Made by a program: the position numbers and the translations under genes. The notes under the pieces were generated by a model, which searched no databases, was not told the origin of the DNA, and saw nothing but the letters and a program-made list of their open reading frames with translations. Source: a virus. From it: a stretch of DNA of 43,319 bases. The stretch's first letter is position 1. Each line of letters opens with the position of its first letter. Below, piece after piece: positions 3,435 through 25,540 of the stretch. The stretch covers positions 1 to 43,319 of IMG/VR virus record IMGVR_UViG_3300004461_001679, one strand, 5' to 3'.

Positions 3435-3451
3435 GTGCGTACTTAATAGCG

Positions 3452-3458
3452 ATAAATA
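3452..3458 (+). promoter_or_regulatory. Possible T4-type late promoter box (ATAAATA)
   Basis: CGATAAATAAAG lies 13 bases before the ATG at 3472 and matches the ATAAATA core of T4-like late promoters seen at three other starts here (25512, 20629, 19135). The spacing is shorter than the 18-21 bases at those sites, and there is no Shine-Dalgarno between box and start, so it is the weakest of the four. If real, the plus-strand operon could be transcribed both early (TATAAT at 3429-3434) and late. Confidence 0.35.
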
Positions 3459-9406: not shown

Positions 9407-10778
9407 CTTCCTCCCACGGATCTTTAGGATTTACCCAATCTTTTCCAAAACGCCACATTGGTGCTTTTAATGTTTCAATATCAACTTCGTAAAAATCTTG
9501 AACTGAGCCTGCGTCGATATCATATTCCACAAAACCTGACCATGCGTGTTGTGATACTATTAACTGTATTTTATCGTATTTTTCTTTTAATAACCGTAAC
9601 AGTTGGTTCTGTTTAAACACTCTTTGTTTGGTTGGCACAAACGGCACTGTTGGCTCATAAGCAAAGATGTTACTGATGTTGAATATAACATTCTTATGAT
9701 TTATAGGTGTTATAGTGAATTCATTCAACAGATCACATTCGACAAATTTGAATTTAACTTTGTCTTTAATATGCCATAAATGACTGACCGTTTCAAAATA
9801 CTCTGCTATCTCTAATTTAGAATTTATCCAGTCTGGTGTTTTGTGTCTATTTACAGATACTAAAAACTTATGATAATCCCCACCATCGAACTTTTTTATT
9901 ATTTCTTCCATGTAGTATAATGCATTGGGATTCCAATCATAAAACACAACTTCAGTTTCTGCATCATATCCGTGTTTTTCCAAATACTTTAACCAGTTAA
10001 GACCACTAGCAGGTGTAATTAATTGGTTAATTGTTCCTGTACTTACAGACTGTAATTCTTCTGTGTTAATTGGATAAAACAATCTATTAGCACTCTGGTT
10101 GTATTTCTTAAAAATTTGTTTGCTGTTTTCATTAAAATCAGTTTCGTGTACTGCATAATAACACTTCTTGCTCATTCTTAAATCTTCATCAAATATTATA
10201 ATTTTTTCTTTGTTATCCAATGCTGTTCTAATAACATTCCATCCATGCCATTTGTGTTTGAATGTTTTAAGTTCATTACCAGGTTTAATCCATAAAGGTG
10301 TATAATCGTCATGAAAGTTTTCATCACTTCTTATAGGCTCTGTGGTAAAATGTTCTGAGTTTCTTTTGAGCTCACCTATCTCTGGTAGTTCTAATTCTGT
10401 GTGTTTCTTTAAATTAATCACATAACATTGTTCATGAAGTTCGTAGTAGCCTTCTTTTCTATCTAGAACGTGTCCGGCTATGTAAAAATCTTGTTCAATC
10501 ATTTTGTGCAGATGTGTAAAGAACGACCCACCTTGAAACTCTGTGTCAGGAGTAAACACAACAGCATAATCATATTGATCAATTATTTTGCTTATTGTTG
10601 CATCTATTGATATAGACACTACTACATCATATCCCATTACATTTAATTTTCCAATTTGATATTCAACAATATTTTGAATTAATTCTTTTGCTGAATTATT
10701 TTTAATTGCATGAAAATTACTTTCAAGAATAAAAATTATATTATGTTTTTTATGCTGTGCATCATATTGAAATGCCAT
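9393..10778 (-). CDS. Two-part protein of unknown function, 461 aa
   Basis: I do not recognise the whole protein. The first ~150 residues read like a nucleotide-sugar-binding or GT-A-like fold: alternating strands, DYAVVFTPDTEFQGG at about 74-88, and CYVINLKKH. A middle segment follows, and from about residue 270 a Rossmann-type region begins: VVFYDWNPNALYYMEE resembles a methyltransferase acidic strand-2 loop, then VKFKFVECDLL and VIFNISNIFAYEP. The C-terminus is strongly acidic (DPWEEDEEK). It may be a fusion of a transferase-like and a methyltransferase-like domain, but catalytic residues cannot be assigned. The ATG at 10778 has AGGAG upstream and overlaps the oxygenase stop by 17 bases. 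It sits between an oxygenase and two radical SAM genes in one operon. Confidence 0.6.
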   Translation of the reverse strand: MAFQYDAQHKKHNIIFILESNFHAIKNNSAKELIQNIVEYQIGKLNVMGYDVVVSISIDATISKIIDQYDYAVVFTPDTEFQGGSFFTHLHKMIEQDFYIAGHVLDRKEGYYELHEQCYVINLKKHTELELPEIGELKRNSEHFTTEPIRSDENFHDDYTPLWIKPGNELKTFKHKWHGWNVIRTALDNKEKIIIFDEDLRMSKKCYYAVHETDFNENSKQIFKKYNQSANRLFYPINTEELQSVSTGTINQLITPASGLNWLKYLEKHGYDAETEVVFYDWNPNALYYMEEIIKKFDGGDYHKFLVSVNRHKTPDWINSKLEIAEYFETVSHLWHIKDKVKFKFVECDLLNEFTITPINHKNVIFNISNIFAYEPTVPFVPTKQRVFKQNQLLRLLKEKYDKIQLIVSQHAWSGFVEYDIDAGSVQDFYEVDIETLKAPMWRFGKDWVNPKDPWEEDEEK

Positions 10779-11421
10779 ATTTTTTAATACTCCTATCTAA
10801 TAATTCGTTAAATTGTTTTCTTTTGTTGCCAATGTGTGCTTGGGCAATCATGTGTATTCTTTCAACGTTAGCATTGTTCACTACTTGATGATCTTTTAGT
10901 ATATTAATTAAAAATACTTTGCCGTGTTCCCAAGGCACTATTCCATGATCTTTAACTTCCATGTAACAAAATGATGGATGTAGTACAGCAACATTTATGG
11001 GTATTAAATATTCACAAAGGTCGTCAGGCAACGGATGACCTGGATCATCATTGTGCCAATCTATTTTTCCTCCTGGATTTAATTTCATAAATCTTATTCT
11101 ACTGTACTTTTCTGCTGGAAAGTCTTCCCAAAACTTTTTCGCTGTTGGAGTAACTTGTTGCAGACTGGTCCACGTATATGGAGCATTCAGTTCATCTTCA
11201 TAACCATACTCTTTTGCTACTCTTGTTTTGTCTACACCTAATCCATGCAGACAACAACTTTCCCAACCGTTATGAGTTTCATCTTCTCTGTGCTCTACAT
11301 AATGACCATTTACATTATCAAATTCTTTTGCGTCTAGATACTCCATAAAATTTATATCCAGTTCTAACCAAGGCAAACTGCCGTCTTTAAATTTATTAAA
11401 AATTTTGGTTGCTGTATCCAT
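10762..11421 (-). CDS. Aspartyl/asparaginyl beta-hydroxylase-like 2OG-Fe(II) oxygenase, 219 aa
   Basis: The core reads MKLNPGGKIDWHNDDPGHP, giving His123-x-Asp125. Distal His178 lies in KDHQVVN and Arg188 ten residues later matches the 2-oxoglutarate-binding arginine, the spacing of the Asp/Asn beta-hydroxylase family. Members hydroxylate protein or peptide side chains or small amino acids. The N-terminal half (HNGWESCCLHGLG) is typical of phage members of this family. The ATG at 11421 follows the methyltransferase-like stop by one base, and no strong Shine-Dalgarno is seen, which fits coupled translation. This oxygenase differs in type from the three in the leftmost operon. The substrate is unknown. 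Confidence 0.8.
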   Translation of the reverse strand: MDTATKIFNKFKDGSLPWLELDINFMEYLDAKEFDNVNGHYVEHREDETHNGWESCCLHGLGVDKTRVAKEYGYEDELNAPYTWTSLQQVTPTAKKFWEDFPAEKYSRIRFMKLNPGGKIDWHNDDPGHPLPDDLCEYLIPINVAVLHPSFCYMEVKDHGIVPWEHGKVFLINILKDHQVVNNANVERIHMIAQAHIGNKRKQFNELLDRSIKKYGISI

Positions 11422-11422
11422 G

Positions 11423-12028
11423 TTATTTCTTGTGCCCTATAATCATAAACCTGTTATATTTTTCTGTAGACAATGAAGCACTTGAATCAACAACAAGTCC
11501 ACAGTCTTTTTTAAATTCTTCTAGAGTCTTTTTACAATTCACATGTTCTTCACAGTCAAAGAAATCGTTGCTTTGTAAAACAATTCTTTTATTGTTTGGC
11601 AATTTATCCAACCATTCAGTGTATTGTGTTGGTGTCATATGTTCACACACAGTATTAATAATTAGATTGTGCTTGTTATAATCTTTATACGTCAACATGT
11701 CTGACGTAATTGCTTGAAATCTTCCTTGTATTTCATAATCTTTATTCATTGTGTTTGCTACTTGTTCGCATTCACTGTCTATATCCATACTAACGATTCG
11801 AGTGATATCTAATTCACTATTAAATAATAATGTTGCTAACACACCGTTCCAACCGCCACATAATAAAATGTTATAAGGAAGTGTTTGTTGATGTTTTTCC
11901 AAGTAATCTATTAACCAAACTTTACTGTTGATTTGACCTTTCCAAAAACTTTCCAATGTACGATGTGTATCATCAGACTGTCTAATTGCATCCATCCAAA
12001 ACATCACATCTGTAATATTAACTTTCAA
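11423..12028 (-). CDS. Class I SAM-dependent methyltransferase-like protein, 201 aa
   Basis: NILLCGGWNGVLATLLF is a motif-I-like glycine loop, followed by RIVSMDID, the acidic residue at the end of strand 2 that binds the SAM ribose. ITSDML and NLIINTVCEHM resemble motifs II/III and IV. Length fits a single Rossmann domain. The start is a TTG at 12028, not ATG: AGGAG lies seven bases before it (AGGAGCTCAAT), whereas the first ATG is eight codons inside and has no such site. It overlaps the stop of the upstream radical SAM gene by 11 bases. It may methylate the product of the neighbouring enzymes, or supply a related SAM-using step; the substrate is unknown. A non-methylating Rossmann role is also possible. 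Confidence 0.65.
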   Translation of the reverse strand: MKVNITDVMFWMDAIRQSDDTHRTLESFWKGQINSKVWLIDYLEKHQQTLPYNILLCGGWNGVLATLLFNSELDITRIVSMDIDSECEQVANTMNKDYEIQGRFQAITSDMLTYKDYNKHNLIINTVCEHMTPTQYTEWLDKLPNNKRIVLQSNDFFDCEEHVNCKKTLEEFKKDCGLVVDSSASLSTEKYNRFMIIGHKK

Positions 12029-13004
12029 ATTGAGCTCCTAGTTTATCAAAAGATCCACACTGTTTGCCACATTCTTGTAATGGTGTGTGACCCCATGTTT
12101 GTTCTATCTTGTCAAAGTGTCCATTTTCAAAGATTTCTTTTAAACTGTTTTTATTTAGATTTGGAAACTCGCCAATTCTTGTCATATAATCTATTCTGCT
12201 TTCTTGCATAGGCGGAATCCATTCCATGTCTAACCAACAACATGGCGAAACATTACCACAAGCACTCACATACAACTGACTATTTTTCACTGCTTTACAC
12301 ACAATGGTAGGAGTGGTTTCTTTTTGTGATTTTTCAATTAGCGGAATCATACTGGTACTTTTTTGTGTGGGTTCTAATTTGTGTAAAGGTTTACCTTCCT
12401 CGTCTATAACTTGTAGATAATCATTTTTAAATCTAGAAGTATGTTTTGATGAAAACATTTTAAATCCTAAATCTTTACTCATTTGTTCTGCTTGTTCAAC
12501 TTGATGTTCGTTGTGCTTAAACACCAACATATGCCATTTGGCAAATCCGCCTGCACCAATAAATGCTTTGGCATTTTCAATGATTTTATTAAAATCTGTA
12601 GATATACGATACAAGTGATTGGTGTCTTCCAACCCATCTAATCCAAAAGTTACTTTTACTTTTTCATGTGCTAATTTCGTCCACCATTCAGTGTCTCTAG
12701 CACTGCCATTTGTGTGCATGGCAAGTCTTATAGAAGGATTTGTTTTACGTAGATGTTTGTATATTTCTAATGTGTCTTTACTTACAATAGGATCTCCTAA
12801 ATTACCACACATAAACATACTGTCTATTTGTTTAATAAAGTCCTCAGAAAACCATTTTTTAAATGTATCCAGTGTTATTTCATCAAGATGTATAAAAGGA
12901 TTCAGCGGTCCTCCTTGTATTCTTCTAGGACACATTGGACATTTGGCTTGACACTTACTAGTAATTTCTAAATGAACATCTTTTATGTCTGTTAGTTTAT
13001 ACAT
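12018..13004 (-). CDS. Radical SAM/SPASM enzyme, 328 aa
   Basis: Cys18-x3-Cys22-x2-Cys25 (CQAKCPMCPR) is the SAM-cleaving site, and GNLGDP (67-72) replaces the usual GGEP. The C-terminal half has Cys236, Cys249, Cys255-Cys256 and Cys312-x3-Cys316, a SPASM-like auxiliary cluster with the typical pattern of text between (VSACGNVSPCCWL). This is the most conventional SPASM member of the six and is only distantly similar to the other five. SPASM enzymes typically modify peptides (RiPP maturation) or carbohydrates. The ATG at 13004 overlaps the previous radical SAM stop by 8 bases (ATGTATAA), so the two are translationally coupled and may act in sequence. Confidence 0.85.
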   Translation of the reverse strand: MYKLTDIKDVHLEITSKCQAKCPMCPRRIQGGPLNPFIHLDEITLDTFKKWFSEDFIKQIDSMFMCGNLGDPIVSKDTLEIYKHLRKTNPSIRLAMHTNGSARDTEWWTKLAHEKVKVTFGLDGLEDTNHLYRISTDFNKIIENAKAFIGAGGFAKWHMLVFKHNEHQVEQAEQMSKDLGFKMFSSKHTSRFKNDYLQVIDEEGKPLHKLEPTQKSTSMIPLIEKSQKETTPTIVCKAVKNSQLYVSACGNVSPCCWLDMEWIPPMQESRIDYMTRIGEFPNLNKNSLKEIFENGHFDKIEQTWGHTPLQECGKQCGSFDKLGAQFES

Positions 13005-14085
13005 TTGTTCTTTCTTTTTTAAATTGCTTAGATTGTTTTCTACTAATTTCTATTATTTCTTCATCCACTTGAATCTGTTCTAAAAAGTCTTTTTTTCTGT
13101 GCTTAGGTATTTTGCTATCAGCAGAACTTACACAGGTTGGTGTAATACATTTTTTTGCTTGTTTAAACAGATTAAATCCTTCATCAATAGTGCCCAACGG
13201 CTCATCATGACAACTGTATGCTCTTTTTACTTCTCCACCTGGCTCTCTTATGATACAACTTTGATATCCAGCATTGCAAGTCCAATCTTTAAATTTATTA
13301 AAGTCAAATGCATTAAATCTTTCTGCTTGATCCAGGTGATAAACATTATTCTTAAAATCCATCATAGTTATTTGTTGTATCGATGACCCATCATGTTTTT
13401 TTAAAGGAAACCCTTGTTGCATTAATTTGATTTGTTCTTCTGAATAACCACTAACAATTTCACTAGCAGATTCATTACTTTGAGGTTTCAATGTTACATT
13501 TATTCCACGTTGATTAAATCTTTCACATCTTTCATACAATTCGTTAAACAATTCAGGAACCATTACTTGATTAATTGTAGTATGTACTCCATTCTCTTGT
13601 AGCATTAATAACTTATCACCAAATGTCTTCTCATCAGCAAATTCATGATGATAACTTGCTGTAATACTTCTACGCACAAGAGATTCTGTTGCTGTTAACC
13701 AAACTTTCCACCATTTCATTCCAGGAGAACAATTTGTTGTCATGTGTATACTTTGGTATTTTGCTCTGTCATTATTAGCATAATGTCCAATCAAAGGTAA
13801 AAATCTTTTGTATGCTGTTGGTTCTCCTCCTGAAAAACTAAAATGAAAACTGTTAAACCCGTTTGCCTTGGCTTGTCTTTTAATCTCAGTTATTGTATTT
13901 TTGTAAACTTCAAGTGGTCGGTGATCCAGTTGTTTACTATGAGCATAAGGCCAACAATATGAACAATTATAATTACAAAATCTACCTAAGATCCAACTCA
14001 CATTGAATAAGTCCTTAGTCATCATGGTACTTTGTCCAACGTGTGTTATATTTTCAAAAGGTATTCTAGTAGTATTCACTGACAC
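12997..14085 (-). CDS. Radical SAM enzyme with C-terminal Cys cluster, 362 aa, GTG start
   Basis: Cys37-x3-Cys41-x2-Cys44 (CNYNCSYC), GGEP at 86-89, and the late motif DWTCNAG (Cys270) with Cys277, Cys292, Cys313 and Cys318 place it with the 6291-7253 and 7243-8139 enzymes. It lacks the final CxC of those two, ending CITPTCVS, so its auxiliary site may bind differently. The start is a GTG at 14085: AAGGAG eight bases before it (TTAAGGAGACTTGCA) supports this over the ATG at 14025. The GTG start overlaps the previous stop by 20 bases. A basic tail of about 40 residues (DKSxxx-type lysine-rich) extends past the cluster. It is the third member of this paralogue group and is paired with the SPASM gene. 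Confidence 0.83.
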   Translation of the reverse strand: MSVNTTRIPFENITHVGQSTMMTKDLFNVSWILGRFCNYNCSYCWPYAHSKQLDHRPLEVYKNTITEIKRQAKANGFNSFHFSFSGGEPTAYKRFLPLIGHYANNDRAKYQSIHMTTNCSPGMKWWKVWLTATESLVRRSITASYHHEFADEKTFGDKLLMLQENGVHTTINQVMVPELFNELYERCERFNQRGINVTLKPQSNESASEIVSGYSEEQIKLMQQGFPLKKHDGSSIQQITMMDFKNNVYHLDQAERFNAFDFNKFKDWTCNAGYQSCIIREPGGEVKRAYSCHDEPLGTIDEGFNLFKQAKKCITPTCVSSADSKIPKHRKKDFLEQIQVDEEIIEISRKQSKQFKKERTNV

Positions 14086-14755
14086 TGCAAGTCTCCTTAA
14101 ATTGTTGTTTTAACCAATCAAAATCATTTATAAGATTCAGTTTGTCTTTGTGTTCTATTCCAAACTTTCTACCTTGTTTTGCACCTTCAATAGCAAAGTC
14201 TCCATAAGGTCTATTCGCACCTTTGCTACACCAAATGTTTAGCCTGTGCTCTGTTTCATCGTTCTCTTGTCTATCTATTACTTTAGAACTTAACTTAACA
14301 CATTCTCTAAAAGCAGATTTCCAAGCACTAAATGGGTCTGAATTAAAACCTGTTATGTTTGATACTTGCTTTATTGCTTTAAAATTATTTGATATACTGG
14401 TTGTCATGTCTGTTGTGTTTGTGTTCATTTCTAATGTTAATTGCTTTGGCAATAATTTTACTCCACCGTATCCGTATTGTAAATCATTAATAGGATTACG
14501 ACTTTGCCAAACATGAACTGTTTCTAAATTGTACTCATTTACTTGATAATCAAAATTAAAATCTTCTACTATCTGAGCATCAGCATCAACTACCCAAAAC
14601 ATCTTTGTGACAGATACTTTTGCCGCTTCAATATGTGCTTGATGGATGCCTTTAACTCCTTGTACTCGTTGAGCAATAGGAAAACGTTCACACAATGTTT
14701 TATAATTGTGATCCGCCAATGCTTCATTGTAACTTATAAACACAATATCGTACAT
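14066..14755 (-). CDS. GT-A-like glycosyltransferase, 229 aa (second of a tandem pair)
   Basis: The N-terminus MYDIVFISYNE begins a GT-A-type fold, and FWVVDADAQI contains a DxD motif (Asp57-Ala-Asp59) that would bind metal and the nucleotide-sugar. It is a paralogue of the next upstream gene: both share the pattern RVxGVKGxxxAHxxAA before the DxD, a mid-region YGxG, and RPYGDFAIEGA/NPYGIHAIHGA near the end. The length (229) is short for family 2 enzymes. The ATG at 14755 overlaps the upstream stop as TAATG with GAGGA about 11 bases before it. It should transfer a sugar in the cytoplasm; a related 'nucleotidyl' or acyl role cannot be excluded. The fold is fairly likely, the donor and acceptor unknown. 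Confidence 0.6.
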   Translation of the reverse strand: MYDIVFISYNEALADHNYKTLCERFPIAQRVQGVKGIHQAHIEAAKVSVTKMFWVVDADAQIVEDFNFDYQVNEYNLETVHVWQSRNPINDLQYGYGGVKLLPKQLTLEMNTNTTDMTTSISNNFKAIKQVSNITGFNSDPFSAWKSAFRECVKLSSKVIDRQENDETEHRLNIWCSKGANRPYGDFAIEGAKQGRKFGIEHKDKLNLINDFDWLKQQFKETCSVSEYY

Positions 14756-15663
14756 TAAATTGTTTTCCTCATTATTCTTGGAGTGTTAAGGTATACTTTC
14801 TTAAAAAATTTACTTTGTTCCACAGTTAATGGTTCAATAGGTAATTCGATATCGTGCTCAGCAGTAATCTTTTTGCCTAGTTCGATACTGTCTTGATAAA
14901 AATTAACTTTAACATCATCATGAAGTTCAAACTTCCAATACTTTTCAAAATATCTATATTCGTTTGCTTGACTGAAATCCCAATCTGTACACATTGTGAG
15001 ATAGCAACCTGTTCTTGCTCCATGAATAGCATGAATACCATAAGGATTATCCATACCCACTGTCATCCATACCAGTAATCTTTGATAGTTTTGCCACCAC
15101 AAGTCTTTTGGTGCTTGTCGCACATTTTTATCCAAACTCATTTTAACACCTTCTCTGAATCCGGCTCTCCAGGATTGATATGCAGATCCATCTATGTAAC
15201 TGGTTGAATAATTTTCATTAAACTGATAGTAATTTGGAAAATGACAAAATTCTATTACATTTTTGTTTGTGCTATCTGCTTCACCATCATGATTCTCGTG
15301 TGTCTTCATATTTTTTACAAAATCTTTTGTCCAACATTTTAAACTGCCGTTGCCGTATCTTAATCCATTAAGATCAATATTTCCACACCAACTAAATTGA
15401 TAGGTATTGTCTAGTCCTAACGAATTTAAGTCAACTATCACATTCAAAAAACTGTCATGTATTTGTGTGTCAGCATCAACTGTGATAAATCTATCTGTTT
15501 CAGATATTTCTGCCGCTTTTTTATGTGCTGTGTCAAAGCCTTTAACACCGTGTACACGTTTTGCCCAGGGTATTTTTCTTTTTAAGTTAGCAAAATTCTT
15601 TTCAGCATTGGGTTCATCAACACTTAAAAACACAAAATCCATATCAGATACCTTTAAAATCAT
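14755..15663 (-). CDS. GT-A-like glycosyltransferase, 302 aa (first of a tandem pair)
   Basis: FITVDADTQIHDSF carries the DxD motif (Asp63-Ala-Asp65) after a GT-A-type N-terminus (DFVFLSVDEPNA). It is about 70 residues longer than its paralogue 14066-14755, mostly at the C-terminus. The ATG at 15663 overlaps the previous stop as ATGA and has GAGG eight bases upstream (GAGGTAGCACA), preferred over the internal ATG at 15642 (MDFVFL), which also has a possible site. Tandem duplication with divergence suggests two steps on related acceptors. No transmembrane segment is seen. Confidence 0.62.
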   Translation of the reverse strand: MILKVSDMDFVFLSVDEPNAEKNFANLKRKIPWAKRVHGVKGFDTAHKKAAEISETDRFITVDADTQIHDSFLNVIVDLNSLGLDNTYQFSWCGNIDLNGLRYGNGSLKCWTKDFVKNMKTHENHDGEADSTNKNVIEFCHFPNYYQFNENYSTSYIDGSAYQSWRAGFREGVKMSLDKNVRQAPKDLWWQNYQRLLVWMTVGMDNPYGIHAIHGARTGCYLTMCTDWDFSQANEYRYFEKYWKFELHDDVKVNFYQDSIELGKKITAEHDIELPIEPLTVEQSKFFKKVYLNTPRIMRKTI

Positions 15664-16256
15664 TGTGCTACCTCATATGAATAATTGTAAATTTTTCTAC
15701 AAAACAATCTTGGTGTTTGATTAGATTTATGCTCAAATTGAATATCACCAGTAGTACACAACTGCTTTAAGTCTACATCAAAGGAATAATCAGGAACACT
15801 TGTATTGTGTTGTGGTGTAGTAAAAAATTTAAACACATTATTGTCTTGTTTTACTGTGTTTTGTATTATATTTTTTAAATCATCATCTATACTAACGTTC
15901 CATTTTTTATTTTTCATATCCAGTTTGAATCTAACACATGAATCTTTATCATTTTTTATTATTTCGTAAACCACTTTGTTAGTATGGTTGTCTGTTTTTA
16001 TATCAGTTTGCAGTTTGTTGTTTACTACATACCGCGATTCGACAACATATTCGGTGTCTTTGAATACTACTCTGTAATCTGATAGTTGCTTTGATCCGCT
16101 TTGAACCTGTGTTGCTAGTTCTTCTGTAATTTCTACACTGTGTCCTTGTTGTTGCACACTACACCCAAGCACTTCATTAGATTCTGGATTGAAATGAAAA
16201 TAATATTTCACTGCAGGACGTATTACATCAAATTCTAGCGGCGGTCTTATGTTCAT
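15660..16256 (-). CDS. Hypothetical protein, 198 aa
   Basis: Not recognised. The sequence MNIRPPLEFDVIRPAVKYYFHF leads into a charged, beta-strand-rich protein with repeated YRVVF/SRYVV-type strands, three cysteines and no signal peptide, membrane segment or nucleotide motif. The ATG at 16256 overlaps the previous stop as ATGA with GGAG eight bases before it. It sits exactly between the two pairs of glycosyltransferase-like genes, so a partner, chaperone or acceptor role is plausible but unproven. It could be a carrier or substrate protein for the modifying enzymes. Confidence 0.65.
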   Translation of the reverse strand: MNIRPPLEFDVIRPAVKYYFHFNPESNEVLGCSVQQQGHSVEITEELATQVQSGSKQLSDYRVVFKDTEYVVESRYVVNNKLQTDIKTDNHTNKVVYEIIKNDKDSCVRFKLDMKNKKWNVSIDDDLKNIIQNTVKQDNNVFKFFTTPQHNTSVPDYSFDVDLKQLCTTGDIQFEHKSNQTPRLFCRKIYNYSYEVAQ

Positions 16257-17074
16257 TGTAGTTGCTCCAGCATCTTGTCTGTTAAAAAATTATCTTCCAC
16301 ATAGTGAAACAAACCGTGTTGTTTAATATTGCCTACAAATAATTCATTTTGTGAATTAAGATTGTAATCAATTTGTTCAGTCCACAACTTTAATTGACTT
16401 TGATAGTGTTGTATTTTGGGTTTCATGTGAGTAAATGTTAAATTGTTATGTTTACTGAAAACTTTGTGTTGTATACCCAACAACTTAATTGCTATTGCAG
16501 TAGCAACATCCATACTACACCAAGACTGTGTTTTATTTTTTGTGAAACGTTTGCTGTATTGTTCATAGTTTATCACTATATCTGTTAATAATTTAAAAAA
16601 TACTTCGTTGTTTTTGCATTTTTTAAAATAATGAAATCCACAATACACATTAGGTAATGAATTTTCCACAAAGACTTTTCTATAATAATCACTTGTTACC
16701 CAATCATTTCTGTAAGTTTTTACTTTATTGGTATAATATAATTCATAGTTGCTTAACTGTTTCCACCAATGTTCTATGTTTTCCAACAACAGCATATCTA
16801 CATCTATCACAATAGATTGGTCAAATGGACTGGTATTATAAATTTTACATCTATTATTAACTTTCCAGTCACTGTCGACTGCTAGATCATCTCCGGGTAT
16901 GTCTTTGATTATATCAAAGTGCTTTTGATAGTTTTCAGGGACAACAATATCAGTGATCAAACACACTTGCTCGTTGGGCATAAATTTTTTAATGCTTAAA
17001 CTACAAGCGACTGCTTGTTTAAGATAATCACAAACATCGTTCTTCTGTACAAATAATATAAAACCTCTATTCAT
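16253..17074 (-). CDS. Glycosyltransferase-like protein (GT8/GT-A type), 273 aa (second of a pair)
   Basis: RGFILFVQKNDVCDYLKQA opens a GT-A-like fold, and IVIDVDMLLLENI has a DxD motif (Asp91-Val-Asp93) in the context 'I-hydrophobic-DxDML', as in family 8-like transferases that use UDP-sugars. It is a paralogue of 17067-17879 (FxxNxxxxDYxKQAxxCxxxIKK and VCLIT are common to both). The ATG at 17074 overlaps the previous stop by 8 bases (ATGAATAG), without an evident Shine-Dalgarno. Length is in the range of GT8 members. Probably a cytoplasmic sugar transferase; the sugar and acceptor are unknown. Confidence 0.6.
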   Translation of the reverse strand: MNRGFILFVQKNDVCDYLKQAVACSLSIKKFMPNEQVCLITDIVVPENYQKHFDIIKDIPGDDLAVDSDWKVNNRCKIYNTSPFDQSIVIDVDMLLLENIEHWWKQLSNYELYYTNKVKTYRNDWVTSDYYRKVFVENSLPNVYCGFHYFKKCKNNEVFFKLLTDIVINYEQYSKRFTKNKTQSWCSMDVATAIAIKLLGIQHKVFSKHNNLTFTHMKPKIQHYQSQLKLWTEQIDYNLNSQNELFVGNIKQHGLFHYVEDNFLTDKMLEQLQ

Positions 17075-17879
17075 GTTGATCTATAATTTTATTCAATCCT
17101 ATTTTGTTCATTATGTGTATGTTCATATCTTTTATTTGACATTTCGTTCCTCGTTCAAATGTAAAACTCCATTTATTATCCACGTACGAGTTTACCTTAT
17201 CTTTGTCTGTGGTATAAAACAGTTTGCCTGGCAGTTGTTTGGGCCAATCGGTTTTATCAAAATTATTAATCATATGAATTGCCACAGCAAATGCAAAGTC
17301 GTTTCTGTAAATTGTGTTTATAATTTGATATTTGAACCTATAAAATTCCCATTCATTTTTTACATGATTAATTAATTCAAATAAAATTTTAGTTCTTTCA
17401 GTTTTCTTAAAATAAAACACTGTGGCCCAACACATTTCAATACCAGTATCGCTTATGTATTTCATTTCCTCAGTGTATCTGGATTCAAAGTCTATGTGTT
17501 GTGCTTTGTAATTAATTAAAAAGTCTTCCTTGCTGTCAAACACTTTGTTAAGATTGTTGTTTGCTACCACATAGTCTGTGTCCATCACAATGGTTTCATC
17601 ATATGGTGTTAAAGAGTACGCATCGGGTCTTGAAGTGTTGTTCCAGAAATCTTCATAACGTTGTGTAGCATTATTGAATGTTTTAGTTTGAGTAGTGGTT
17701 GGCTTTTTTACCACAATCACATGATTAAAATTATTGTGATCTTCATTGAATTTGTCTGACGTAATCAAACACACTGGCAAATTTAGATGTTTCTTTATTT
17801 GTCCTGCACAAAAATTAGCCTGTTTGACATAATCCACAGTGCTGTTGTTGTGTGCAAAAAGCAAAACTCCTTTGGTCAT
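17067..17879 (-). CDS. Glycosyltransferase-like protein (GT8/GT-A type), 270 aa (first of a pair)
   Basis: TIVMDTDYVVANNNL gives the DxD motif (Asp100-Thr-Asp102), and KGVLLFAHNNSTVDYVKQANFC at the N-terminus (residues 3-24) matches the paralogue. A later Cys-containing segment (IEMCWATVFYFKK) aligns with VYCGFHYFKK in the partner protein, suggesting a shared active-site wall. It follows the small 111-aa gene after 2 bases, with GGTGAG upstream of the ATG at 17879. It is the second gene from the early-type promoter at 18230-18258. The pair could add two sugars to one acceptor. Confidence 0.6.
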   Translation of the reverse strand: MTKGVLLFAHNNSTVDYVKQANFCAGQIKKHLNLPVCLITSDKFNEDHNNFNHVIVVKKPTTTQTKTFNNATQRYEDFWNNTSRPDAYSLTPYDETIVMDTDYVVANNNLNKVFDSKEDFLINYKAQHIDFESRYTEEMKYISDTGIEMCWATVFYFKKTERTKILFELINHVKNEWEFYRFKYQIINTIYRNDFAFAVAIHMINNFDKTDWPKQLPGKLFYTTDKDKVNSYVDNKWSFTFERGTKCQIKDMNIHIMNKIGLNKIIDQHE

Positions 17880-17881
17880 GA

Positions 17882-18217
17882 TTAGATCTCACCTTTATCT
17901 TTCACCAATTGATTGTATTCCACAAAGTACTGATTTAGATTACGTTGATACAAGTCAGTAATATTGTTGTGAAAGGAGTTGATGTCTGTGATTTTTACCG
18001 GAAGTTTGTAATCATCAAGAAAAATTGCTTCATTAGTTTTTTTGATGTTCATCAATGTTAAACAATAGTTGATTAGATTGAGATCAACGGTAAATTGATG
18101 TCCTTGAGTGTACAAGATATTATTCTCAAGACACTGTTCTTTTAACAGTTTTATTTGATTGTTGAACGTGCTTAGACGCTCTGCGTATTCCAAAGATTTT
18201 GATAAGGATTCATCCAT
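17882..18217 (-). CDS. Small protein of unknown function, 111 aa
   Basis: First gene of the enzyme operon. It begins MDESLSKSLEYAERL, with heptad-like leucine and charged residues, so a helical/coiled-coil protein is likely; the C-terminal half (NSFHNNITDLYQRNLNQYFVEYNQLVKD) is also helical. No catalytic motif is visible. Similar short helical proteins occur beside tail-fibre genes in T4-like marine phages and may be fibre chaperones, but that is from memory of genome layout. It is also the size of a possible peptide substrate for the radical SAM enzymes, though it has no obvious leader/core or cysteine-rich segment. The ATG at 18217 lacks a Shine-Dalgarno and would follow a leader of only ~6 bases from the predicted start of transcription. 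Confidence 0.6.
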   Translation of the reverse strand: MDESLSKSLEYAERLSTFNNQIKLLKEQCLENNILYTQGHQFTVDLNLINYCLTLMNIKKTNEAIFLDDYKLPVKITDINSFHNNITDLYQRNLNQYFVEYNQLVKDKGEI

Positions 18218-18234
18218 AATATTAAAAATATTAT
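18216..18234. repeat. AT-only inverted repeat over the -10 and start codon
   Basis: ATAATATT, three A, AATATTAT: a perfect 8-base palindrome with a 3-base loop. It lies over the minus-strand -10 box (18235-18230), the predicted transcription start (~18223) and the first two bases of the start codon (18217-18215). It could be an operator or could form a hairpin at the mRNA 5' end. All A/T content makes chance occurrence fairly likely in this AT-rich sequence. Confidence 0.35.
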
Positions 18235-18258
18235 ACTTGATTTTTGGATATAAGTCAA
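18230..18258 (-). promoter_or_regulatory. Strong sigma70-type promoter for the enzyme operon
   Basis: On the minus strand TTGACT (18258-18253) and TATAAT (18235-18230) are separated by exactly 17 bases. This differs from the bacterial consensus at one position only. It lies in the 48-base gap between the last structural gene (stop at 18266) and the ATG at 18217, the largest gap on this strand. The predicted transcription start is near 18223. It would make the enzyme operon readable by unmodified host RNA polymerase, i.e. early in infection, unlike the fibre genes behind late boxes. Confidence 0.75.
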
Positions 18259-18265
18259 CTATAGA

Positions 18266-19135
18266 TTAGAAATTATCGCCAGAACCACGCACAACTCCTG
18301 GTGCAGTACCAATTACATCTGTGATTGCTGTTGCTGTGTAGAAGTTAGATGTTAAATTAGAAATATTTTCATCTGGATTACCACCTGATTCGTCTCTCCA
18401 AGTTACTGTGAATCGTATTTGAGTAGCACTTGATTGAATTACATCTACATAATAATCGTTTTGAGCATATGCTCCACCACCTGCATCAAAGTTTGATAAT
18501 AGTCTTTGTGAGGATCCTGTTAATTCAAAATTTCCTACTGATGATCCATCCACTGTACCGTTTCCTGTATGTGTTGTTCCATGAGCACTAAATTTAAGAT
18601 TTCCGCCCATTACTGAATTCCAAGAACTACCTTTTGAACTGGAATCTGATGTGCTGGATGAAATTTGAATATATCCACCTGAGTTAAAATAATATCTTCT
18701 AGCGTCTGCAGATGTAAAATTTACGTTCACAATAAGAGTAATTGTTCCATTCCATGAACCTCTTGTGTTAGATAAAGCAGTTGCAACAACTTGTTGCGTT
18801 GAATCAACTGTTAATCTATTTGTGCTGATTGTTGTCGCTAATGCTTCGTATTGATCCCAACCTGTGTAACTAACACCATCATTTTCTTTGATCAAGTCAC
18901 CTTGATTGACTGCTTGAATTACATTTGTTGATGGATTGCCACCAGTTTGGTGTTTGTATGCTTTTCTTAAATCTTCGTATGAGTTATTGATGTTTGTTGC
19001 GTTGATCAAATCGCCAACTTGTACAGACTGAGTTGTAAGTGTTTGTCCATAACCAGTGTCACCTGAACCATTTCCTAACACATTATCTATCTGTTGTCTT
19101 AAAGTGTTGAATCTATTTGCTGTTACTAAAGCCAT
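18266..19135 (-). CDS. Probable virion structural protein (tail/fibre), 289 aa
   Basis: The protein starts MALVTANRFNTLRQQID and is rich in Gly, Ser, Thr and Asn with alternating beta-strands, as in tail-fibre or adhesin proteins. It has no enzymatic motif. The N-terminal ~100 residues are more helical and could be an attachment segment; the rest (NGTITLIVNVNFTS, TGNGTVDGSSVGNFELTG) looks like beta-sandwich. Proteins with this beginning are found with fibre genes in marine T4-like phages. It is preceded by the late-promoter box at 19162-19156, and a Shine-Dalgarno-like AGGA lies before the ATG at 19135. It closes the structural module: the enzyme operon starts just after. Receptor binding or virion decoration is inference. 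Confidence 0.65.
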   Translation of the reverse strand: MALVTANRFNTLRQQIDNVLGNGSGDTGYGQTLTTQSVQVGDLINATNINNSYEDLRKAYKHQTGGNPSTNVIQAVNQGDLIKENDGVSYTGWDQYEALATTISTNRLTVDSTQQVVATALSNTRGSWNGTITLIVNVNFTSADARRYYFNSGGYIQISSSTSDSSSKGSSWNSVMGGNLKFSAHGTTHTGNGTVDGSSVGNFELTGSSQRLLSNFDAGGGAYAQNDYYVDVIQSSATQIRFTVTWRDESGGNPDENISNLTSNFYTATAITDVIGTAPGVVRGSGDNF

Positions 19136-19150
19136 TTATTTTTATTCCTA

Positions 19151-20629
19151 CTAACTATTTATTAGGCGTAGTGCTACCTCAACCAGTTTTGTGGATGTAT
19201 CTGAATTTGATTCTAATGCAAAACCAACCAATTGTCCTTTTTTGGTTGTAGTACCTAAACCTAAATCTGCCGCATAAATTTTTTCACCTTTTTCAACTGC
19301 ACCTGTAACTTTAACTGGCACACGTCCAACAAAAGCAATTGCTTGTCCTTCAGCGTCTTTGTTCATTAAGAAACCAGGATTGCCTGATATAACTCCAAAC
19401 ACATTGCCACCAAATGGACCACCATCAAAGAATGCTGTTGTTTCTGCGTCACCACCAATTGCCATTACTGTTCCAACTTCGTATTCTTTATCTGTTGAGT
19501 AAATCTCAGCCAAGTCAGCATAAGAAGCCTGTGTTGCTCTACCATTGAACACACTGGCTGTAATTTCTCCTGATGCATCTCTCAATGCTGTGGTGTTGTT
19601 TACAGCATTTGTAGAACCTAAATATGTTGTTGCACCAAAGTCTATACCTGAAGCACTGTCTGCCAACCCTTTAAAATAGTTTGCATGTACTTCGTACCAC
19701 TTGTCTGTTACTATTCCTAAATTTTTATTACCAGTACCTGGAAGAATACCGTCTGCATTTACAAAAGCGATTTCATTAACAGTACCACTATCATTAACTT
19801 TTAAAGAAATTTTACTGCCTATTTCATTGGCAATAGATCCTTCTGTACCATTCACTATTGAAACTTTTAAATCATTTGAATCTCCAACAGTAAATCCTAC
19901 ATCACCAAATCTTACAATACTAGAAAAAGCACTTGCTCCTGATCTAATAAAGTCTGCGGCTAAAAATCCACCCAATCTATCTGAGTTGGATGAAGTACCC
20001 CAATATCTATGATCTGTAGATGTAACACCATTTGTTGTTGACTGTGTGTTTACTAATGTAATACCTTTTTTAACAACATCGAATCCTGTAATTTGGTTAG
20101 ATGGATCTGTTGTACCTATTGTGAATTCTGCTGAACTGAATAACATCACAGTATCATTATTAATTTTACCTTCAATAATGAGTTGGTTGGCATTTAAATT
20201 ATCTCTAATCTGTCTTGAAACAAATTGAGTAACTGTGCTACCTGTACCTTGTGGACCTACAAGAACAAAACTTGTTCCGTCCCAAGCATACAATTGACTG
20301 TTTGCTGTGTCCCACCAAAAATCACCAGTGGTTAATCCTACTGGTGCAGTGGCACTAACTTCAGCACCGCCTGTTGTTCTGAATTTTGTTCCATCATAAA
20401 ACTTTAATTTACTTAAAGATGTATCAAACCATATTTGTCCACCCATAGGACGACTTGGTTGACTACCACTAGCAAAGTTTTCTAATAGGTGTAAAAAGTT
20501 TTCATTTTGGATTTCGCCGTATCCAGCATAATTTTTACCTATAAAACGTAGATTAGTTGTGTTGTCAATAGTACCGTCTTCTACAGTTGCTATCAGTGTT
20601 CCATCAAATTTGTTAACAATATATGCCAT
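19151..20629 (-). CDS. Tail-fibre-like protein with C-terminal peptidase-G2-like domain, 492 aa
   Basis: Residues ~1-125 form the module shared with the next two fibre genes (YGEIQNENFLHLLENFA, then GQIWFD and LKFYDGTKF). A beta-rich shaft follows, with strand repeats and DNxNAN-type turns. From about residue 370 the C-terminus (YADLAEIY, then FVGRVPVKVTGAVEKGEKIYA) resembles the peptidase G2/IMC autoprocessing domains of phage fibres, which trimerise and may be cleaved off. It has its own late box (20654-20648) and AAAGGG upstream of the ATG at 20629. It likely forms part of the host-binding apparatus. I am sure of the module sharing, less so of autoproteolysis. Confidence 0.7.
   Translation of the reverse strand: MAYIVNKFDGTLIATVEDGTIDNTTNLRFIGKNYAGYGEIQNENFLHLLENFASGSQPSRPMGGQIWFDTSLSKLKFYDGTKFRTTGGAEVSATAPVGLTTGDFWWDTANSQLYAWDGTSFVLVGPQGTGSTVTQFVSRQIRDNLNANQLIIEGKINNDTVMLFSSAEFTIGTTDPSNQITGFDVVKKGITLVNTQSTTNGVTSTDHRYWGTSSNSDRLGGFLAADFIRSGASAFSSIVRFGDVGFTVGDSNDLKVSIVNGTEGSIANEIGSKISLKVNDSGTVNEIAFVNADGILPGTGNKNLGIVTDKWYEVHANYFKGLADSASGIDFGATTYLGSTNAVNNTTALRDASGEITASVFNGRATQASYADLAEIYSTDKEYEVGTVMAIGGDAETTAFFDGGPFGGNVFGVISGNPGFLMNKDAEGQAIAFVGRVPVKVTGAVEKGEKIYAADLGLGTTTKKGQLVGFALESNSDTSTKLVEVALRLINS
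19156..19162 (-). promoter_or_regulatory. T4-type late promoter box (ATAAATA)
   Basis: CTAATAAATAG on the minus strand, with the core ending 20 bases before the ATG at 19135 and an AGGA site in between. It overlaps the stop end of the 19151-20629 gene. It matches the ATAAATA late-gene -10 element of T4-like phages. Confidence 0.6.
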
Positions 20630-20647: not shown

Positions 20648-20654
20648 TATTTAT
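20648..20654 (-). promoter_or_regulatory. T4-type late promoter box (ATAAATA)
   Basis: CGATAAATATAAG on the minus strand in the 30-base gap before the ATG at 20629. The core ends 18 bases before the start, with AAAGGG between. Same spacing class as at 19135 and 25512. Confidence 0.65.
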
Positions 20655-20659: not shown

Positions 20660-22867
20660 CTACGAAGTTAATGTTAGTGTTATTTCTCTATCAAATTGCC
20701 AAACACCGCCATTAACACCAAATTGTAATAATTTTCTTGTAGGAGCAAAAGTGATCGATCCTGTTACGTTTGATGCATTAGACAGCTCTTCTAACACCTG
20801 TTTGTTTGCGGCACCCACAACTGGAGTTCTTTCTACTGTACCAACTGTACAAGTAGCACTGCCCCACCCTGCCGCTGAAGTATCCAAATTGATTGTGAAA
20901 CTCACAAAGTTTGGAGATTCTGCTGGAAATTCTGCCGCCTGTATTGTGTAATTGCCGTCAATATTTGCTGACACACCGTTCACCACAGTTGTGCCTGTGA
21001 TTACAACTGTTTGAGCACCTTCATAATAGTGCGAAGCAGTTGTTGTAATTTTTGTTGTTGTTCCTAAACTTGGATTTTGTGCACCAAATTGAACACTTGA
21101 AATAGTTCTTTGTTGTACAGTGACAGTTTGATCCACTTGAGCATAATTTTTCAAAGTTGAAAAATCAATTGTTGGTATTGTGAATCCTCCACCTACACCA
21201 TAATCAACTGTTAACACTCTTGCTAAAGCACCATCACCTCTTGCAGGTATCACACTGTTAACAAATATACCTAATGGTGGTTCAGCAGAACCACTTCCGT
21301 ATCCTGCAACAGGATATAATGTTTCTAATACTTCTCTTGTGTTAAGATAGTTGTTTCCCACTGCGTTTTGTGTAAAGCCTGATACATCTAATTGTAAACT
21401 AATAATTGCAGATCCATCTGTGTATTCTTTTGTGGCAACATCCGAAGCATTAATTGGTGCCCCAACGCCTGTAATTCTTTTGTTATTTAAAACTTCTATA
21501 GCCGCCGTGTCTGAACTTAATTTTAATGACTGTGAGTTTTGACTGGTAATTGTTGATCCATTAATATTAACATCATCTACATCTAAACTTACTAATGTTC
21601 CCAAAGATGTTAATGACGATCCTAAAACCGAACCACCTAAAGCAGTTTCTGTCAACACAGTGTTTGTGTTTATTTTTAATCCTCTGCCAATAGCAAAATC
21701 AAGCCATTCTGAACTTGTCCAAGCATCTGTGCCGTCTGCCCAGGCAAATGTTTTATCACCGTCTGTAGATTTTAAAGTTATTCCACCACCATTTGCTCCA
21801 GCATCGTTAGTTGTTGCACCTGTACTGGAAAGATTTAATTCTATGTTTTTGTCTTCAACTCTTAAAGTTACTGTGTCAACTGCTGTTTGTGTTCCGCCTA
21901 TGGTTAAGTTTCCATCTATGATTGCATTTCCACCTACATGCAAAGTTGCTGTTGGAGATGCTTTATAAATCCCTACTGCTGAAGCAGAAGAATCTATTTT
22001 GAATGCTGAAACTTCAGCCGGTGTTCGTACTTTAATTTCTACATCTTGATTTGATAGTTGGTTTGCTATTGTGAATGCATTGTTAGTGAATTGTAGTTTT
22101 GTGTTCTGATTTAGACCAACAGTTAAACCTGCATTGTTTTGAATTGTAAGAGCACCTGTGGTTGTGTCATCACTGTCTGAAACCAAATATTGATCTGCTG
22201 TACGAACAACACCATTGCCGTCCACTAATGATTCAGCAATTGTGGCTGTGCCTTTGTATTTGTAATCTGTACCTACTGTGTTAAAACCTTTTACTATTGT
22301 TCCTGATGGATTAGCAACTGTGACTAATTCAGCAATTCTAGATGCTACCGTTGGTGTAAAGTTTGAATTTGAATGAACGCCAACAATGTTACCACCTACA
22401 AACATTTTAATCACTGTTTGTGTAATATTTTGTGTGTCAAGCACACTTACTACTTGATGACCTGATGTTCCTTGTGCTGTTGAATAATCAGGACCTACTA
22501 GTTGTAATCTTGTACCATCATAAAAATACAATTGACTTGTTACACTGTTAATCCAAAGATCACCTGCAACCATGTTAGGTTGTGTCTCTGCAACTGTTGT
22601 TCCGCCTGATGATGTAAATGATGATCCGTTATAAACTTTTAATCTATTCTCTGCTGTGTCAAACCAAAGTTGTCCTCTGATAGGATTGATAGGAGCAGAT
22701 GTATTAGAAAAGTTTTCTAATAATTGTATAAAGTTTTCATTTAATACTTCGCCAAAACCTGAATAGTTTCTTCCTATCAGTGTAAGATCACTGGAAGTGG
22801 TATCTAATTGACCGTCAACTAAATCTACAAGTAAACTGCCGTCAGTTTTATTCAACCTATAACTCAT
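20660..22867 (-). CDS. Tail-fibre-like protein, 735 aa
   Basis: It carries the shared N-terminal module (YSGFGEVLNENFIQLLENFS, GQLWFDTAENRLKVYNG) and then a long beta-rich body. In the middle, LHVGGNAIIDGNLTIGGT followed by VEDKNIELN is a motif repeatedly found in fibres of marine T4-like phages. A DVNINGSTITS segment follows. The last ~260 residues are Thr/Val-rich and have no recognised domain; unlike its neighbours it lacks a collar or peptidase-like end. The start codon overlaps the previous gene as TAATG with a strong GGAGG upstream. Probably a distal fibre or a fibre subunit; the receptor is unknown. Confidence 0.75.
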   Translation of the reverse strand: MSYRLNKTDGSLLVDLVDGQLDTTSSDLTLIGRNYSGFGEVLNENFIQLLENFSNTSAPINPIRGQLWFDTAENRLKVYNGSSFTSSGGTTVAETQPNMVAGDLWINSVTSQLYFYDGTRLQLVGPDYSTAQGTSGHQVVSVLDTQNITQTVIKMFVGGNIVGVHSNSNFTPTVASRIAELVTVANPSGTIVKGFNTVGTDYKYKGTATIAESLVDGNGVVRTADQYLVSDSDDTTTGALTIQNNAGLTVGLNQNTKLQFTNNAFTIANQLSNQDVEIKVRTPAEVSAFKIDSSASAVGIYKASPTATLHVGGNAIIDGNLTIGGTQTAVDTVTLRVEDKNIELNLSSTGATTNDAGANGGGITLKSTDGDKTFAWADGTDAWTSSEWLDFAIGRGLKINTNTVLTETALGGSVLGSSLTSLGTLVSLDVDDVNINGSTITSQNSQSLKLSSDTAAIEVLNNKRITGVGAPINASDVATKEYTDGSAIISLQLDVSGFTQNAVGNNYLNTREVLETLYPVAGYGSGSAEPPLGIFVNSVIPARGDGALARVLTVDYGVGGGFTIPTIDFSTLKNYAQVDQTVTVQQRTISSVQFGAQNPSLGTTTKITTTASHYYEGAQTVVITGTTVVNGVSANIDGNYTIQAAEFPAESPNFVSFTINLDTSAAGWGSATCTVGTVERTPVVGAANKQVLEELSNASNVTGSITFAPTRKLLQFGVNGGVWQFDREITLTLTS

Positions 22868-24897
22868 TATGCTCCTCCAGTATAAATGATGTAGTTTAAT
22901 GTTAAGTATGGATTCATCACATCCATTGCTTGTCCTATTGTTCCGTCTATGCCACCTGAGTTTGGTAATTGTTGAGCACCATTGGCATTTGATAAATCTG
23001 GTCCGCTTGTTGTGGTTACTTCTGGATCTGTAGAAGTGCCTGCAATGTTTCTACCTGCAAAGAATTGATCTCCATTATCTGCTTTTAAATCGTGTTCGTG
23101 ATTTGGAAGATTTTCTTTTGCAATAGTTTTTGTTTCATTACCAGCACCTAAACCTAATCCGTCTGCTACCGGCGATGTTACTCTGTCTGCTGATCCTTGT
23201 CCCAATCCAGGATTGCTCATGTTGTCTTTACCTAGTGGGAATCTACCACGCATGTCTGGCAATTTAAATGTTGCTGAACTGCTTGGAGTTCCATATTGAG
23301 TTCCTATTGTTTGAAACAATTGATTATAAACTGATCTTTGTAATTCAGCACCATCACAAAACAACCAATCTGTAGGAGCAGTTGCTCCAGCATAAGGCAT
23401 CATTGATGCTACTGGTGGTGTTGGTATTGCGTTAGTGATTGCTCCAACAGTTGTTTTGTAAATTCCTGTTGATCCCGATGTTCTATTAATGATAATTTCA
23501 TCTCCAACATTGCTGGTAGTTGTTAATGTTTGGTTACCTATGAATGAATTGTTTATACTTGTTGTAAAAGTTTTTGTTGTTCCACCAGTTTGTCCGTCAA
23601 ACGAAACATCTACTGCTGTAACATCTCCTGCCAATCTAAATGTTGTTGCTTGAGCAAGTTTATCAGCAGAAGTGGCACTTGTGGCATTTCCTGTGATACT
23701 GCTTGTTACGACACTGCCTGCTTGTATTTGGTTGGCGTAAACTGTGTTGTATCTGTTTGTAGTTGATCCAATGTTGTAAGTTAAATTTTGAGAAGGTAAA
23801 ACTGATTGTGCTGTGATATCGCCAGCAAACGTTCCTGGTCCACCTATGTTTGCACTGAGAGCCACACCTAATCCACCTTTAGAAACAATTGCTCCTGAAC
23901 CTATATTGATTGATGGTGACGTGCTGTTTGACACTATTGTGCCTGATGATAAAATATTTCCTGTAACATCTAATGCTTCATTTGGATTTGTGTTGTTAAT
24001 ACCAACTTGTTGTTGTGAACTTATTCTCATCACTGTTGATACCGAACCGCCACTGTTTAATCTAAAGTCTATTTCTTCATCTTGTGTTCCTAATTGAATT
24101 ATACCTGCTTGATTTTCAACAAACATTTTAAATGTTCCAGCGGAACCAACTTCTAAACCTTGGTCAGTTTTAATTTTAATAGGAAAGTCAGTTAACGATG
24201 TTGTGTCTGATCTTAAAAAATTTCCTGCGGCAACTGTGGTGTTACCAACTACTAATGATTCTGCTTTTTCTGATGTTCCATATAGTTTGTTTACATCAGA
24301 ACCAAAATTTGTCGAACTTAAATTTACTCCTGGATTCAATGCTGAAAAGCCTGGGATAGTAATTTTAGGAGTGAATGAACTTTTAGAAATTATAGCAACT
24401 GTCTGTGCTTCAACTTCAAGTTTCACAATGCTGTATGATAAATCGTCTGTGCCTATTATTGATATAGGAGTTGCACCTGTTGTCAAACCTTGACTGTATT
24501 GCGGACCAATTAAAATCCAACCCGAACCAGTAAACAAATATAATTGTTGAGCATTTGTGTCTACCCATAAATCTCCTGAAATACTTTCAGATGCACTTGG
24601 TTGGTTGATTGCTTTTTTCAATCCACCTGATGCTACCCAATTTGCTCCATCATACACTTTAAGTTGATTTACACCTGCGGCGTTATCAAACCAAAGTTGT
24701 CCTTCAATAGGTCTTAATGGTGCTGTGCTGTTAGCAAAATTTTCTAGTAATTGTAAAAAGTTTTCCGATATAACTGTTCCGTAAGAAGTAGTATTCTTTC
24801 CTGGAAAATTAACACTGGTCTGATTGTTTACAGTGTTATCTTCTATAGTGATAGTACCTTTGTTTATAGCATCGGTAAAACTTATATTGTATGCCAT
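22867..24897 (-). CDS. Tail fibre with phage tail-collar domain, 676 aa
   Basis: The N-terminus has the shared module (YGTVISENFLQLLENFA, then GQLWFD and LKVYDGANW). The last ~170 residues form a phage tail-collar domain: MPYAGATAPTDWLFCDG, then LPDMRGRFPLG, the ENLPNHEH histidine loop and NPYLTLNYIIYTGGA at the C-terminus, the pattern of T4 gp12-like and other short-fibre tips. Between them lies a repetitive shaft (NIGSGAIVSKGGLGV, NLTYNIGSTTNRYNTVYANQI). The ATG at 24897 has AAGGA upstream and lies 3 bases after the preceding stop. It is the most confident receptor-contact candidate in the window. Confidence 0.85.
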   Translation of the reverse strand: MAYNISFTDAINKGTITIEDNTVNNQTSVNFPGKNTTSYGTVISENFLQLLENFANSTAPLRPIEGQLWFDNAAGVNQLKVYDGANWVASGGLKKAINQPSASESISGDLWVDTNAQQLYLFTGSGWILIGPQYSQGLTTGATPISIIGTDDLSYSIVKLEVEAQTVAIISKSSFTPKITIPGFSALNPGVNLSSTNFGSDVNKLYGTSEKAESLVVGNTTVAAGNFLRSDTTSLTDFPIKIKTDQGLEVGSAGTFKMFVENQAGIIQLGTQDEEIDFRLNSGGSVSTVMRISSQQQVGINNTNPNEALDVTGNILSSGTIVSNSTSPSINIGSGAIVSKGGLGVALSANIGGPGTFAGDITAQSVLPSQNLTYNIGSTTNRYNTVYANQIQAGSVVTSSITGNATSATSADKLAQATTFRLAGDVTAVDVSFDGQTGGTTKTFTTSINNSFIGNQTLTTTSNVGDEIIINRTSGSTGIYKTTVGAITNAIPTPPVASMMPYAGATAPTDWLFCDGAELQRSVYNQLFQTIGTQYGTPSSSATFKLPDMRGRFPLGKDNMSNPGLGQGSADRVTSPVADGLGLGAGNETKTIAKENLPNHEHDLKADNGDQFFAGRNIAGTSTDPEVTTTSGPDLSNANGAQQLPNSGGIDGTIGQAMDVMNPYLTLNYIIYTGGA

Positions 24898-24900: not shown

Positions 24901-25512
24901 TTATCCTTCGTTAAACCCTGTTAAACTTTGAACTCTAACTGTGTAATCAATCTGAATCAATCTGTTTAAACTTTTTTGTACTGGATGAAAAATTACGTGT
25001 GTTAGTAATTTGCCTGTACCGCTGGGTGAATAACTTACTAATCCTAGTTCATCAAATACATATAAACTGTTTGAAACACTTGCAGTGTCAACAGCATCTT
25101 GTCCATTTGGTTCACCATAGTCTAACAAACAAGTTACAACAACGTCTGTGTAATTTGTTCCATTGATATGTCTTGTTTCTATTTTGTTTCTTTGTGGATC
25201 TAGGTTTGAAACTGATCTGTCGTCAACAATTTTTGTGTATGTTTGGTTGTACAGTGTAGCATTTGTACCTGTACTGTTTGGAGTAAGATATGTGATGATA
25301 CCTGTTGGGTCAACACTTGTTCCACCGTTTCCAAACGACATTGAATTTATGAATCCTTGCCCCTGATTAGCAACACTTTCTGCCAAAGCAACACTCATAT
25401 TCTCATAATGAATTGCGTTGCGTTTATCAACGAAAATCTTGTCTGATTCAGGATCATGTATTTTGATGTGTCCCTGTATTAGTACACCACTGTTCTCTTT
25501 AATTTTGCTCAT
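24901..25512 (-). CDS. Virion structural protein, baseplate/fibre-linked, 203 aa
   Basis: MSKIKENSGVLIQGHIKIHDPESDKIFVDKRNAIHYENM begins (residues 1-39) a beta-rich protein seen next to fibre genes in marine T4-like phages. No catalytic residues are visible. A GGTSVDPTGIITYL loop and a C-terminal strand pair (HVIFHPVQKSLNRLIQIDYTV) suggest a compact assembly component, perhaps linking fibres to the baseplate. It has a late box at 25540-25534 and CGGAG before the ATG at 25512. It lies between the giant protein and the fibre genes, which fits a connector role; this is inference. Confidence 0.65.
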   Translation of the reverse strand: MSKIKENSGVLIQGHIKIHDPESDKIFVDKRNAIHYENMSVALAESVANQGQGFINSMSFGNGGTSVDPTGIITYLTPNSTGTNATLYNQTYTKIVDDRSVSNLDPQRNKIETRHINGTNYTDVVVTCLLDYGEPNGQDAVDTASVSNSLYVFDELGLVSYSPSGTGKLLTHVIFHPVQKSLNRLIQIDYTVRVQSLTGFNEG

Positions 25513-25533: not shown

Positions 25534-25540
25534 TATTTAT
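25534..25540 (-). promoter_or_regulatory. T4-type late promoter box (ATAAATA)
   Basis: CAATAAATACAA on the minus strand; the core ends 21 bases before the ATG at 25512 and overlaps the stop codon of the giant gene (25537-25539). CGGAG follows as the ribosome site. It would let the fibre genes be transcribed independently of the 14.7-kb gene upstream. Confidence 0.6.

Follow-up and report, generated by a model that had tools for sequence, protein, structure and literature searches.

The 48-nt gap between the tail-fibre genes and an eleven-gene enzyme operon in the marine phage DNA analysed here (positions 1–43,319 of an IMG/VR record, referred to as the window) contains a site that is well supported by its retention over deep divergence as a genuine σ70 (RpoD)-type promoter. 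Marine phages commonly carry islands of enzyme genes next to their tail-fibre genes, which may serve either the virion or the host; a timing promoter conserved across many uncultivated lineages offers a handle on the role of such an island, the enzymes of which probably precede the fibres. Our explanation, which we hold with a probability of roughly 0.8, is that the RpoD-type site would start the operon early, that the fibre genes would await a late sigma factor, that read-through would add late expression of the operon, and that the operon would constitute a kit for fibre maturation and surface modification. This last element is the most likely role of the operon and also the least certain part of the explanation.

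Along its minus strand, the window carries in order a baseplate wedge protein (40212–43319), a 4891-aa protein and fibre-like genes down to 18266, followed by the gap (18218–18265) and the eleven tightly packed operon genes (18217 down to 7243). The baseplate protein shares ~31–35% identity with its counterparts in jumbo phages, among them Atu_ph07, SCTP-2 and K64-1, which points to the window belonging to the same broad jumbo-phage group as phage vB_PcaM_CBB; no isolate phage with this operon was found. The 4891-aa protein is encoded by a single open frame (25537–40212) located between the baseplate and fibre genes. The gene just upstream of the promoter (18266–19135, minus strand) encodes a fibre-associated protein that is syntenic in most of the relatives checked and has no Pfam or PHROG match, and the C-terminus of the fibre gene at 19151–20629 displays a weak match (E = 6e-5, below the curated cut-off) to Peptidase_G2, an autoproteolytic intramolecular chaperone domain.

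Conservation of the junction promoter

The site (18230–18258, minus strand) consists of TTGACT at 18258–18253 and TATAAT at 18235–18230, separated by a spacer of 17 nt, and matches the σ70 consensus (TTGACA and TATAAT, 16–18 nt apart) in 11 of 12 bases. The −35 element starts 8 nt past the stop codon of the gene at 18266–19135 and the −10 element ends 12 nt ahead of the ATG of the gene at 17882–18217. A preliminary description of this DNA had placed TTGACT, 17 bases and TATAAT between the last structural gene and the first gene of the enzyme operon, with a start near 18223; the sequence of the gap confirms the former, and the predicted +1 (~18223) agrees with the latter. The window holds a single copy of the exact pattern, and the probability of an 11/12 match inside the 60 nt preceding the gene at 17882–18217 is ~0.004. 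In a 17-kb stretch of DNA as AT-rich as this, a match of this type is no rarity, and sites scoring at least 9/12 in the region are at chance level (70 observed, 73 expected from shuffles), for which reason the window sequence alone is not decisive. No Shine–Dalgarno sequence was found in the 48-nt gap of the window, and the operon gap of its close relatives (L001) holds no NTAAATA late-type box, the mark of a gp55-type late promoter. An AT-only palindrome, ATAATATT-N3-AATATTAT, at 18216–18234 covers the −10 element and the start codon, and is found in close relatives only.

Relatives were gathered from viral contigs by means of the first and second genes of the operon, and the gap promoter was looked for in 23 related loci with protein identities as low as ~41%. 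The gap ahead of the first operon gene scores 10–12 of 12 in all 23 and contains TTGA[CT][TAC]-N17-TATA[AC]T, with the exact 17-nt spacing, in 22. When spacers of 13–21 nt were compared, 17 nt was the sole optimum in 22 of the 23 loci; the one exception, L071, has kept TATAAT and not a well spaced −35 element. These scores, together with the spacing optimum, rule out a chance origin of the site. As a control, the stretches preceding 257 other genes of these loci were scored; 5% of them reach 10/12, and some of these cases are extra genes beside the same fibre/operon junction. In 19 representatives, the base counts per column are T19 T19 G19 A19 C18 followed by T, A or C for the −35 element and T19 A19 T19 A19 A13/C6 T19 for the −10 element, and the spacer sequence is variable. 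The conservation of both elements in related genomes, proposed earlier as a check on the promoter, was thus borne out in the same gap.

The gap sequences of seven close relatives are 94–100% identical to that of the window, compared with 37–71% for the four-fold degenerate positions in the two genes that follow, a mark of purifying selection on the promoter. Outside the window's clade, conservation is confined to the hexamers and their 17-nt distance, and the remaining gap diverges. The length of the predicted leader, computed for 19 loci with +1 placed 7 nt past the −10 element, also varies in an orderly manner. It amounts to 6 nt in the window's clade; leaders of 0–8 nt (seven loci) are never accompanied by a Shine–Dalgarno sequence, whereas those of 9–20 nt (12 loci) have one in 11 cases. 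Such covariation is as expected if the transcript begins at the gap promoter.

Early and late promoter classes

Two promoter classes recur in long relatives of the window. The motif ATAAATA falls within the 90 nt that precede a gene start in 22 of 26 occurrences in G003, 17 of 21 in G004, 21 of 36 in G002 and 30 of 48 in G001, against a background of 4–7% of positions. The genes behind it are annotated (PHROG) as tail tube, tail sheath, baseplate wedge, virion structural and head–tail adaptor proteins, and ten further late-box genes that were scanned comprise three with virion-type annotations and seven of no annotated function. On the other hand, σ70 sites precede genes for the late sigma factor, the small (beta) subunit of RNR, an exonuclease, HNH and other endonucleases, a phosphoesterase and GTP cyclohydrolase, so that sites of the type seen at the operon stand before early or middle genes in related genomes. 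These comparisons support the view that the operon carries the host-σ70 class, and it very probably has an early, RpoD-type start of its own. The earlier suggestion that the island could be expressed early by the host polymerase is strengthened accordingly by the company that this class keeps in relatives.

Ahead of the late sigma factor gene, TTGACA-N17-TATA[AC]T is kept in G002, G003 and G004 at 68–73% protein identity. This second deeply conserved promoter, TTGACAAAATTAA...TATA[AC]T, is located at 11612–11639 of L102 (G003:C1:91611–91639) and has equivalents in G002 and G004, with similar sites in about ten long relatives. A search for a phage-encoded sigma factor with a Sigma70_r2 domain gave no match in 12 long relatives, the fragmentary state of which leaves absence unproven. 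A σ70 site that precedes the major head gene in G002 was considered as a counter-example and set aside; its −35 element runs into the last part of the preceding coding sequence, as judged by eye, and its −10 element is not retained in G003.

In phage vB_PcaM_CBB (and GAP32), RpoD-like sites are concentrated before presumed early genes, ATAAATA stands ahead of structure-related genes and a gp55-like late sigma factor is encoded (PMC5259590). Because the same RpoD-like and ATAAATA classes recur in the window's relatives and in CBB, the contrast between early and late genes drawn in the preliminary description is well founded. The sites of CBB are predictions in one genome, whereas the σ70 site of the window sits within the fibre/enzyme junction and is traceable across many uncultivated relatives. 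The promoter classes of uncultivated jumbo-type phages are, in this way, readable from metagenomes by comparison.

Within the window, ATAAATA occurs four times, always just upstream of a gene. The three boxes of the minus strand each lie 18–21 nt ahead of a start codon: that at 19156–19162 is 20 nt before the gene at 18266–19135, that at 20648–20654 precedes the fibre gene at 19151–20629 and that at 25534–25540 precedes the gene at 24901–25512. The genes at 20660–22867 and 22867–24897 have no ATAAATA box of their own, and the statement that the structural genes upstream of the operon have such boxes therefore holds for the former three and not for these two. The fourth box (3452–3458, plus strand), contained in GATAAATA at 3451–3458, stands before the enzyme genes at 3472–7253, and is kept in L129 and has drifted in L130 and others. 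A division into σ70-driven enzyme genes and late fibre genes is consequently upheld for the operon but fails for these plus-strand genes; since they carry a late-type box, the enzyme genes are not uniformly early. The region at 3427–3458 is a divergent start region with ATTATAAT (TATAAT on both strands) and the GATAAATA box, and separates a minus-strand 2OG-oxygenase gene set from plus-strand PP-loop, SGNH and radical SAM genes.

The operon is likely also to be expressed late, by read-through from the box at 19156, 0.9 kb upstream of the gap, because the 48 nt that separate the operon from the fibre genes showed no terminator-like site and because one clade has an added CTAAATA box (eight loci, 9–19 nt before the operon −35 element). 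The fibre genes of that clade likewise use CTAAATA. Dual early and late expression would be the likeliest state of the operon.

Operon genes and their possible role

The first gene of the operon (17882–18217; all of its genes are on the minus strand) encodes a 111-aa protein with a predicted H-EE-H-EE-H fold (pLDDT 91.7) for which the match to prefoldin and DUF4376 proteins is moderate. Many DUF4376 proteins are among its best matches in BFVD (TM about 0.5–0.65, 8–18% identity), and prefoldin subunits are the nearest PDB folds, with Z up to 8.0, a match flagged by the tool as possibly unspecific for helical proteins. Membership of DUF4376 by sequence was rejected, as profile searches were without match: for the proteins of the window and six relatives, the PF14301 (DUF4376) profile gave none at E ≤ 10. 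In the Alteromonas phages V22 (gp27) and A5 (gp9), DUF4376 proteins whose genes directly follow those of the fibres act as tail-fibre chaperones (PMC7289586, PMC10579305). The small protein of the window resembles them in having its gene immediately behind a fibre gene and may do so in its predicted fold, and differs from them in lacking a PF14301 match and in the early-type promoter that parts it from the fibre gene; it is a candidate tail-fibre chaperone. Gene 57A of T4, a fibre chaperone made early, was given no weight in the argument, and nothing on its early expression was found in a paper on T4 tail morphogenesis.

The second gene (17067–17879) encodes a 270-aa GT8-like glycosyltransferase that combines a GT-A fold with a DxD motif (MDTDY); Asp100 and Asp102 are invariant, the nearest solved folds are those of glycogenin (Z 15), LgtC (Z 14) and UGGT, and no sequence relatives were found in the PDB. 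The core is completed by conserved genes for a 273-aa protein related to phrog_1903, of unassigned function (16253–17074), a 198-aa protein (15660–16256) and a 302-aa protein (14755–15663) in which a D-x-D motif (VDADTQI) like that of glycosyltransferases was recognized by eye. Domain matches in the distal operon (7243–14755) include four radical SAM proteins, two of which carry SPASM, and an Asp/Arg-hydroxylase-type 2OG oxygenase, among others, and the content of the radical SAM part differs between relatives. The order fibre gene, promoter and genes for 111, 270, 273, 198 and 302 aa is found in most relatives, some of which have extra fibre-like or unrelated genes inserted. In L062 (6406–7605) and L078 (6367–7594), the 111-aa gene is separated from the fibre genes by an extra gene encoding 383–391 aa, which is provided with a near-consensus σ70-type promoter of its own with a 17-nt spacer.

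In the mechanism that we propose, the host RNA polymerase would recognize the gap site as a σ70 (RpoD)-type promoter and the eleven genes from 18217 down to 7243 would be switched on early in infection, the upstream fibre genes having to wait until a phage late sigma factor of the gp55 type acts at their ATAAATA boxes, and late transcripts from the 19156 box would probably continue into the operon. Its enzymes and candidate chaperone would in this manner be made ahead of the fibres themselves, as a kit comprising the prefoldin/DUF4376-like protein, glycosyltransferases, and radical SAM and 2OG enzymes.

Early timing is compatible with host-surface remodelling and with a fibre-maturation kit alike. 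The operon might instead act on the host, with early enzymes remodelling the cell surface (for example, excluding other phages) or metabolism and gene 1 being an enzyme accessory rather than a chaperone, and we regard this as a serious possibility that falls somewhat short of even odds. The early-type promoter and the enzyme-rich distal gene content are in its favour, as is the interpretation given by their authors to the glycosyltransferases of the pelagimyophage host recognition cluster, an island of variable content, set within the structural region, in which tail fibres occur together with glycosyltransferases and radical SAM proteins (PMC7029224). The island of the window is alike in composition and placement, although it belongs to another phage group and shows two clear promoter classes, whereas the middle and late promoters of pelagimyophages were left unresolved by those authors. 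The persistence of the core genes next to the fibre gene in deeply divergent lineages, the chaperone-like predicted fold of gene 1 and the late-type box added in one clade speak against an action on the host. It had been argued earlier that early expression tells against a role purely in virion assembly; this does not follow, because gene 1 has a prefoldin/DUF4376-like predicted fold and stays near the fibre gene in the relatives checked, and we lean towards the fibre-maturation kit on account of that fold and that location.

Two further readings concern the gap itself. It is improbable that the site is inactive or minor and that the operon is expressed late only, through read-through from the ATAAATA at 19156: the failure to find a terminator in the gap and the position of this box 20 nt ahead of the last fibre gene would suit such a scheme, but the hexamers and their spacing are under strong selection and the pattern of leaders and Shine–Dalgarno sequences points to a start in the gap. 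Slightly less probable still is that the conserved gap is an operator, an RNA structure or a recombination site merely resembling a promoter; the 17-nt spacer and the AT palindrome are indeed nearly invariant in the window's clade, yet beyond it the hexamers and the 17-nt distance alone remain.

For the preferred reading, a fibre-maturation kit under an early promoter, a more detailed version can be put forward tentatively, in which the kit would be ready before the late fibres, these would be folded and modified as they emerge, and in some lineages the first cistron would be translated from a leaderless early mRNA. The predicted leader is 0 nt in L065 (near 7657) and L066 (near 3439), the mRNAs of which would be strictly leaderless, and that of the window (6 nt) nearly so. 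A leaderless transcript that starts from a σ70 promoter at, or a few nucleotides before, the AUG and lacks a Shine–Dalgarno sequence is known from PRM-cI of phage lambda, which the starts predicted here resemble; they differ in gene and regulation, and in that their leaderless state is a prediction. The kind of promoter described here is already known, and it is the depth of its conservation at the fibre/enzyme junction and the leaderless and leadered series that are useful and testable: the related loci form a natural series in which one promoter is predicted to give rise to both leaderless and leadered mRNAs.
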